Part shown: positions 44,473 through 45,412 of the stretch, one piece after another
How the letters are laid out: every line of letters begins with the position of its first letter
How positions within the stretch are numbered: the stretch's first letter is position 1
DNA from: Exiguobacterium sp.
GTDB taxonomy: Bacteria > Bacillota > Bacilli > Exiguobacteriales > Exiguobacteriaceae
Assembly: GCF_020832205.1 (NCBI RefSeq)
Contig: NZ_JAFIFD010000042.1
Coordinates: 1-64,000 of the forward strand
DNA length: 64,000 nucleotides
Direction of reading: 5' to 3'
Notes under the pieces: generated by a model
The model's input: the letters and a program-made list of their open reading frames with translations, nothing else
The model's database searches: none
What the model was told of the DNA's origin: nothing
Made by a program: the position numbers and the translations under genes

Positions 44473-44518
44473 ATGTAAAAAAAGATTGTCTCTTGGCGAG
44501 ACAATCTTTTTTTACATT
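44473..44518. terminator. Bidirectional terminator between yqgX and yqgY
   Basis: ATGTAAAAAAAGATTGTCTC pairs with its complement around a 5-base loop; the convergent yqgY stop lies at its edge. Confidence 0.88.
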
Positions 44519-44775
44519 TGGAAGTTACTCCAATACGTGAAGACGACGAAGAATACAGTCAAGTAAGCCCCGAACACGTATACATACGTTTTTTCAGTCA
44601 ACTTCAAGTAGCCTAGTGCGACGAAGAAAATAGTTTGAGCTAAAAAGACAAGACCCATTACGACGAAGTCACCAGTATGTTCGCTGCTGCTTTGATCTCC
44701 ACCGAGTGCGCCCACGAAAGCAAGCGCCGCGATCAATCCAGTCCAAAAACCAAGGACACGGTACATTCTCGCCAT
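44512..44775 (-). CDS. yqgY: DUF2626 membrane protein (YqgY-like)
   Basis: 87 residues with three likely helices (FWTGLIAALAFVGALGG, FVVMGLVFLAQTIFFVALGYL, YVYVFGAYLTVFFVVFTYW). The start MARMYRVLGFWTG is typical of DUF2626. Function unknown. It is convergent with yqgX and diverges from the Spx-like gene, as in B. subtilis yqgY and yqgZ. Confidence 0.88.
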   Translation of the reverse strand: MARMYRVLGFWTGLIAALAFVGALGGDQSSSEHTGDFVVMGLVFLAQTIFFVALGYLKLTEKTYVYVFGAYLTVFFVVFTYWSNFQM

Positions 44776-44909
44776 GTTAATCCCCCCATACGTACATTAT
44801 TCCATTCTCATTCACTATTTTACCAACACATTAAAAAAAATGCTATGAAAACGTGTGAATTGAGCAAAATAATCGTGAAAAAAATGTGAAATTTAAGAGT
44901 GGCGAAGGG

Positions 44910-44972
44910 TTGTACAAAAAAATAAAAAAAGTTGTACAAATACTGTACATAATTGTCCAACCGTTGTATAAT
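44910..44972 (+). repeat. Phased TGTACA-type palindromes at the spx-like promoter
   Basis: TGTACA cores start at 44911, 44933 and 44944, then TGTCCA at 44954 and TGTATA at 44965, i.e. steps of 22, 11, 10 and 11 bp. The first two are full TTGTACAA palindromes. The last units make up a possible promoter TGTACA-N17-TATAAT (44944-44972). No known Bacillus operator of this form comes to mind. Confidence 0.6.
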
Positions 44973-45025
44973 CAACTTACACACACTGAACGACCGGGAA
45001 CACATCTCATAAGGAGGCTTTAACA

Positions 45026-45412
45026 ATGGCAAATGAACTGATGTTTTATACGTATCCAAGCTGTACTTCATGCCGGAAGACGAAGGCATTTTTACAAGAC
45101 CAGCAACTCAACGTGAGCGAACGTCATATTTTCCGTGACGCCCCTTCGGTCGACGAACTGTTGACGTTGTTGACACTTTGTGACAACGGAGTCGAATCCC
45201 TTCTCGCCACACGGAGTCAAGCGTTCAAACAGTTGGACGTCGATGTCGATGACTTGAAATTGAGCGAGTTGCTTCAACTCATGAGTGAAAACCCTAAATT
45301 GTTGAAGCGCCCGATCTTGACGGACGGGAAAGAAGTGATTGTCGGTTACGACAAAGTATCGATTGAGACGTATGCCCGCCGCCATGACCTCACAACTTCA
45401 AACGTTTCCTAA
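45026..45412 (+). CDS. ArsC/Spx-family regulator (MgsR-like)
   Basis: 128 residues with the thioredoxin-like redox motif CTSC at about residues 12-15 and KRPILTDGKEVIVGYD near the end. Spx and MgsR bind the RNA polymerase alpha subunit to redirect transcription under thiol or sigma-B stress. The position matches yqgZ (mgsR), between yqgY and comGA. The gene order favours MgsR, but general Spx function is possible. AAGGAGG precedes the ATG; a phased repeat array lies upstream. Confidence 0.82.
   Translation: MANELMFYTYPSCTSCRKTKAFLQDQQLNVSERHIFRDAPSVDELLTLLTLCDNGVESLLATRSQAFKQLDVDVDDLKLSELLQLMSENPKLLKRPILTDGKEVIVGYDKVSIETYARRHDLTTSNVS

Follow-up and report, generated by a model that had tools for sequence, protein, structure and literature searches.

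When bound to AdoCbl, the CarH oligomer blocks σA-dependent promoters in darkness; photolysis of the cofactor by light then releases the promoter (PMC8156234). CarH operators are tandem 11-bp repeats of the form nnnnTnnACAn that overlap the -35 or -10 element, with three repeats in Thermus and four, or three and a pseudorepeat, in B. megaterium, and the Cystobacter protein requires adjacent repeats (PMC9304148); the repeat has also been given as nAnnTnnACAn (PMC8156234). Published accounts of class I CarH/LitR treat it chiefly as a regulator that switches carotenoid production (PMC9304148, PMC8156234, PMC9758184), and the class II LitR of Pseudomonas has sites of the form TGTACA-N12-TGTACA (PMC9758184). 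In B. subtilis, trxB carries two Spx elements, AGCA (-45 to -42) and AGCG (-34 to -31), which lie 11 bp apart with an A-rich link (PMC2801614), and mgsR (yqgZ) has been reported to be induced exclusively by σB and to be positively autoregulated (PMC7235348). A MerR/B12-binding protein of E. antarcticum, encoded near recQ, has been modelled on the CarH structure 5c8a in a paper that also mentions CarH and carotenoids (PMC6016940), and carH appears as a gene name in another (PMC6158405); the available text of these two papers mentions no operator and no link to mgsR.

The window analysed here, the whole stretch of 64,000 nucleotides, contains a 250-bp intergenic region with a DUF2626 gene (44512-44775, minus strand) on one side and, divergent from it, a gene for a 128-aa RNA-polymerase-binding regulator of the Spx/MgsR family (45026-45412, plus strand) on the other. 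The regulator scores 113.4 bits against TIGR01617 (cut-off 75.05) and also matches ArsC (PF03960). A metallo-hydrolase-like gene lies upstream and a comGA-like gene downstream, matching an order yqgX-yqgY-yqgZ(mgsR)-comG that we take to be that of B. subtilis. The gene is assigned to mgsR on the family profile, a CxxC motif (CTSC) and the comGA-like gene 3' of it, features that it shares with B. subtilis mgsR.

Preceding this gene on the plus strand are a ribosome-binding site (AAGGAGG, 45011-45017), a -10 element (TATAAT, 44967-44972) and, across a 17-bp spacer, a poor -35 hexamer, TGTACA (44944-44949). That hexamer lies within the third of five related boxes, CTGTACAT (44943-44950). Box two, TTGTACAA (44932-44939, about -47 to -40), lies 11 bp 5' of it, and the TGTACA of box one, again TTGTACAA (44910-44917), lies 33 bp 5' of it. 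Boxes four, TTGTCCAA (44953-44960), and five, TTGTATAA (44964-44971), are look-alikes, at most degenerate repeats in this lineage. The sequence bears out the coordinates of the original prediction, with steps of 22, 11, 10 and 11 bp between the five boxes. The prediction had the last boxes forming the -35 and -10; the fifth does overlap the start of the -10, but the -35 is the third box. It also placed all sites on one side of the helix; the first three boxes share an 11-bp grid, and the fourth and fifth are 1 bp off that grid. A second 11-bp direct repeat, of GTGAAA at 44875 and 44886 (44875-44891), is found 5' of the array in a stretch that is strongly conserved in the genus.

TGTACA by itself occurs at about background frequency across the window (eight copies against a shuffle mean of 6.72), so enrichment of the hexamer there was ruled out. 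Its arrangement is another matter. When the 250-bp intergenic region was subjected to 20,000 dinucleotide shuffles, at least three copies of TGTACA appeared in 13, a pair 11 bp apart in four, and three copies on one 11-bp grid in none. The array is real and well above chance, and it is conserved for the first three of its five boxes only.

Conservation was assessed in a family set consisting of 19 genomes of the window's own genus (the window's genome included; genus 1) and 18 genomes of a second genus (genus 2), all with close relatives of the MgsR-like protein; the relatives that bear names are Exiguobacterium (E. alkaliphilum, E. aestuarii, E. profundum, E. aurantiacum and others). Conservation in close relatives, on which the original prediction had staked the array, is complete for the two proximal units: a pair of TnnACA units exactly 11 bp apart lies over the mgsR -35 in 37 of 37 upstream regions, and in none of the 37 read backwards, which supports the prediction that the phased array suits a cooperatively binding regulator. 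The -10 is TATAAT or TATAGT/TATATT in all 37, with a 17-bp spacer in 35 of them and an 18-bp spacer in the other two. Counting offsets from the -35 unit, the 17 genus-1 loci that could be anchored at a 17-bp spacer all have a further unit at -33 or -32, on the grid or 1 bp off it, which is the counterpart of box one, and nine of them have an additional unit at -43 or -42. In genus 2 a third unit is found at -22 (18/18), giving three adjacent units, whereas in genus 1 this slot is empty; the window thus fills three positions of an 11-bp grid and leaves one vacant. With the two genera aligned on the -35 unit, identity between them is 100% in the eight columns that hold T and ACA in the proximal pair of units, 98% in all 12 unit columns, 75% in the -10 and 39% elsewhere, and in the family alignment an A stands without exception three bases 5' of the T in the -11 unit. 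Variation in the units is confined to the free middle bases (TATACA, TGCACA), and deviating units (TATACA, TGCACA, TGGACA, TGAACA) retain T and ACA at the expense of the palindrome. The fourth and fifth of the five related cores are not supported as sites, as TTGTCCAA or TTGTCTAA is found in only 4/37 loci (L001-L004) and the fifth is the beginning of the -10. No TGTACA array was seen at 12 mgsR-like genes of other families, of which one (L080) has a TTGACA/TGAACA pair that fits the loose pattern; three genomes (G043, G047, G048) encode CarH-like proteins and have no such array at their mgsR-like gene.

Comparison with the described systems points to CarH/LitR. As in the operators of T. thermophilus and B. 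megaterium (PMC9304148, PMC8156234), 11-bp repeats with T and ACA fixed lie over a σA -35 in genomes that encode a cognate CarH. Two adjacent units are found in 37/37 family loci and a third at -33/-32 or -22; one unit is the -35 hexamer in 37/37; and CarH/LitR is encoded in 38/38 family genomes. The usual, although not defining, carotenoid target is absent: where those operators serve carotenoid operons, this one lies before the gene for a stress regulator of the Spx family, and carH itself lacks the repeats. The vacant slot also counts against CarH, since the Cystobacter protein needs adjacent repeats (PMC9304148). The Pseudomonas class II LitR sites have an identical hexamer, likewise over the -35, and serve light-responsive genes outside carotenogenesis (phrB, folE, cryB), although their step is 18 bp instead of 11 bp (PMC9758184). 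That LitR is missing one B12 domain and works with LOV proteins (PMC9758184), whereas the Exiguobacterium protein has both B12 domains. The likeness to the Spx/α-CTD element at trxB, with elements at about -44 and -33 (an 11-bp step), an A-rich link and a weak -35, stops at the bases, as GTAC stands at -45 to -42 in the window's mgsR promoter in place of AGCA or AGCG, and at further phased units, which the available account of trxB does not include (PMC2801614).

The cognate protein is encoded, in the window's own genome, by a minus-strand gene on another contig (G000:C55:31699-32553; similar to L198:7697-8554), not adjacent to mgsR and placed by eye between MecA-like and recQ-like genes. One such protein is encoded in each of the 38 family genomes, with at least 58% identity to this copy. 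The own copy and one from another family genome (G036) match MerR_1 (PF13411), B12-binding_2 (PF02607) and B12-binding (PF02310) over cut-off, and the best solved relatives are structures of T. thermophilus CarH (E 8.6e-38 and 1e-37). Both Wx9EH and ExHxxG, the latter presumably the cobalamin motif of class I CarH, are present at 39 of 39 loci from 37 genomes (two each in G002 and G036). By these sequence features, a MerR helix-turn-helix, two B12-binding domains, Wx9EH and ExHxxG, the family protein appears to be a class I CarH. A cobalamin adenosyltransferase was found in the five family genomes asked (5/5).

We then have to ask how far the array is confined to mgsR. The original prediction had suggested a genome search for other phased sites, which gave no excess outside the mgsR locus: TTGTACA-N4-TTGTACA with up to two mismatches has 13 matches in the own genome against 17 in the backward control. 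Four of the 13 make up the mgsR array, and elsewhere just C36:40413, together with its reverse, comes within one mismatch. Among 25 family genomes, exact TGTACA-N5-TGTACA is found at mgsR in 15 of the 19 in genus 1 and all six in genus 2, with single additional matches elsewhere in G007, G015, G022 and G024. Exact TTGTACA pairs at 9–11-bp steps are found in 13 of 19 genus-1 genomes, every one at mgsR; the own genome falls outside these 13 because its third box reads CTGTACA. A whole-promoter pattern allowing three mismatches gave no further conserved mgsR-like promoter; a TTGAAAAA...TATACA match is shared by G002, G005 and G013. A search for three TnnACA units in a row returned a recurrent cluster, TCCACA three times at 11-bp steps (G000:C2:29822-29849 and equivalents, TACACA standing first in one), in 16 of the 16 genus-1 genomes searched; these are probably DnaA boxes, a decoy for searches of this kind, and were dropped. 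A text search of the literature for TTGTACAA gave nothing useful among the matches listed. In the own genome, where few other promoters were examined and weaker sites could exist, no second array of comparable strength was found.

The Exiguobacterium genes that might have been expected to carry the repeats do not. No TnnACA pair at 10–12 bp was found within 200 bp 5' of ORFs of at least 100 aa in the two own crtI-like regions (C41, C53) and one such region of G036, a genus-2 genome, and the 11-bp pair is present upstream of carH at none of the family's 39 loci, so that mgsR stands alone as a strong target among those examined. The carotenoid genes covered in Exiguobacterium, all without CarH-type repeats, are at L313, L314 and L315. 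We put it at slightly better than even that CarH in the Exiguobacterium family left carotenogenesis and became a near-dedicated regulator of an Spx-family redox regulator that binds RNA polymerase, through which light and B12 would feed a thiol or general stress regulon.

Similar arrays are found in other Bacilli, and it was their occurrence at carotenoid and litR genes that pointed to CarH/LitR as the binder. The class survey covered 398 genomes (38 of the family and 360 others), with the palindromic 11-bp form tallied by eye; it is present in 32 of the 38 family genomes and 17 of the 360 others, and a control pattern in nine of the others. An array stands at the start of a carotenoid cluster (PF04240, Caroten_synth) in G310, whose CarH carries both motifs, and another before a phytoene-desaturase-like gene in G344 (some gene names assigned by eye). 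In G038, a genome of another family, arrays precede a crtI-like gene (on the other strand) and the genome's own litR-like gene, as well as genes for a TetR-type and a DUF4397 protein, with five triple TnnACA arrays (L096, L202, L291, L141 and a fifth place at C5:88471) against none in the backward control; these are likely to constitute a LitR regulon. In G189 an array lies divergent from a litR-like gene. In G038 and G189 the CarH-like protein departs from class I, and in G038 it has neither Wx9EH nor ExHxxG. The DUF4397 gene is preceded in three genomes of one genus, g4 (L142, L143, L141), by four TTGTACAA-like boxes at 11, 22 and 11 bp that extend from the -35 to beyond the probable start site.

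Of the 360 non-family genomes, 104 encode a CarH-like protein (E up to 1e-10). Among the 17 that show the array pattern, 11 do so (p = 0.002, uncorrected for relatedness) and six have none; for the control pattern the figure is 2/9. The arrays of three genomes (G176, G186, G205) lie inside an ORF, recF-like in G176, and dropping these coding matches leaves 8/14 (p = 0.02, uncorrected for relatedness). Arrays in G070 and G333 are also within ORFs, and that of G215 is ahead of a dnaA-like gene. A mechanical rule that keeps only arrays outside ORFs of at least 150 aa gives 5/7 with a CarH-like protein (p = 0.02, uncorrected for relatedness), three of the five being of one genus; this rule scores G310 and G189 as inside, a frame being open through the promoter. 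The class-wide association would seem supportive but weak. In a non-random sample of 18 other-family genomes with CarH, chosen as best matches, an 11-bp TnnACA pair is found upstream of carH in ten (4/18 in the backward control), nearly always as TATACAAA[GTA]TTTACACA. This sequence lies directly 5' of carH in several Bacilli families (L248-L261), which suggests CarH autoregulation there, not seen in Exiguobacterium.

The main rival to CarH binding is that MgsR, together with the C-terminal domain of the RNA polymerase α subunit, reads the boxes at -46 and -35 and induces its own gene. The poor -35 of the mgsR promoter would suit this, as would the positive autoregulation of mgsR in B. subtilis (PMC7235348) and the position of the trxB Spx elements, which correspond to the two proximal boxes and are likewise 11 bp apart (PMC2801614). 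The bases at those positions are GTAC, however, neither AGCA nor AGCG, and autoactivation gives no role to the units further upstream (-33 or -22), while the family array holds constant each base that the CarH consensus fixes. Arrays also stand before unrelated genes: in G038 they precede a crtI-like gene and litR, yet the best match there to the MgsR-like protein is an Spx-like paralogue with 39% identity. Disfavoured on all these counts, from the missing AGCA to the base-for-base fit to CarH, autoactivation is in our view unlikely.

Two other kinds of regulator could in principle read repeats of this form. Regulators of the OmpR/PhoB type bind tandem half-sites about 11 bp apart that overlap the -35, and 11-bp direct repeats over a poor -35, kept in 37/37, are what such a response regulator would use as its operator. 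There is no candidate regulator, though, and since the CarH consensus accounts for the invariant bases and like arrays stand at carotenoid and litR genes, we consider this slightly less probable again. The palindromic form found in 32/38 family genomes could be the site of a classical dimeric repressor (TetR, GntR or similar) reading TTGTACA-N5-TGTACAA, which is quite improbable given that deviating units give up the palindrome and hold on to T and ACA, that the six family genomes without the palindromic form still keep the direct repeat, and that additional units extend the 11-bp grid.

The original prediction had left the binder of the phased array as an unknown regulator; CarH/LitR can now be proposed from the unit, the step, the position and the presence of the protein. 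Neither the array nor CarH is missing from any family genome examined, which leaves no losses to compare. Our main reading, with a probability of about 0.72, is that the array is the operator of the CarH/LitR photoreceptor repressor, with CarH-AdoCbl probably repressing mgsR in the dark and light releasing it; we infer the binding, the repression and its relief by light from sequence. The contrast originally drawn with σB control in B. subtilis fits the window, whose mgsR promoter has no GGGTAT in its spacer and is of the σA type under a CarH-like operator, unlike that of B. subtilis; it may not extend to the whole genus. GGGTAT is present in the σA spacer of 13 of 19 genus-1 promoters (L007-L019) and 0 of 18 in genus 2. 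This GGGTAT stands some 14 bp 3' of the GTACAA in the -11 unit and resembles a σB -10. The own genome has a gene for a SigB/F/G-type sigma factor, and mgsR may have a σB input in the relatives.

If CarH is the binder, each TnnACA unit would take one MerR-type DNA-binding domain of the AdoCbl-bound oligomer, the 11-bp spacing placing the units on one face of the helix. Since one unit is the -35, bound CarH would be expected to block σA transcription of mgsR in the dark. On illumination the Co–C bond of AdoCbl would break, CarH would disassemble and come off the operator, and synthesis of MgsR, which partners RNA polymerase and senses redox state, would take place before photo-oxidative stress or in the course of it. 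A shortage of AdoCbl would be expected to derepress mgsR as well. The operator type is already known; the mgsR target and the apparent departure from carotenogenesis were not found in the open-access literature searched. If the reading is right, mgsR should be on in the light, on without B12 and on in a carH mutant, and MgsR would gain an input beside σB. A one-component B12 light sensor would then be tied, across a widespread genus, to a redox regulator that acts on RNA polymerase, and Exiguobacterium may use light to turn on its redox stress regulator.
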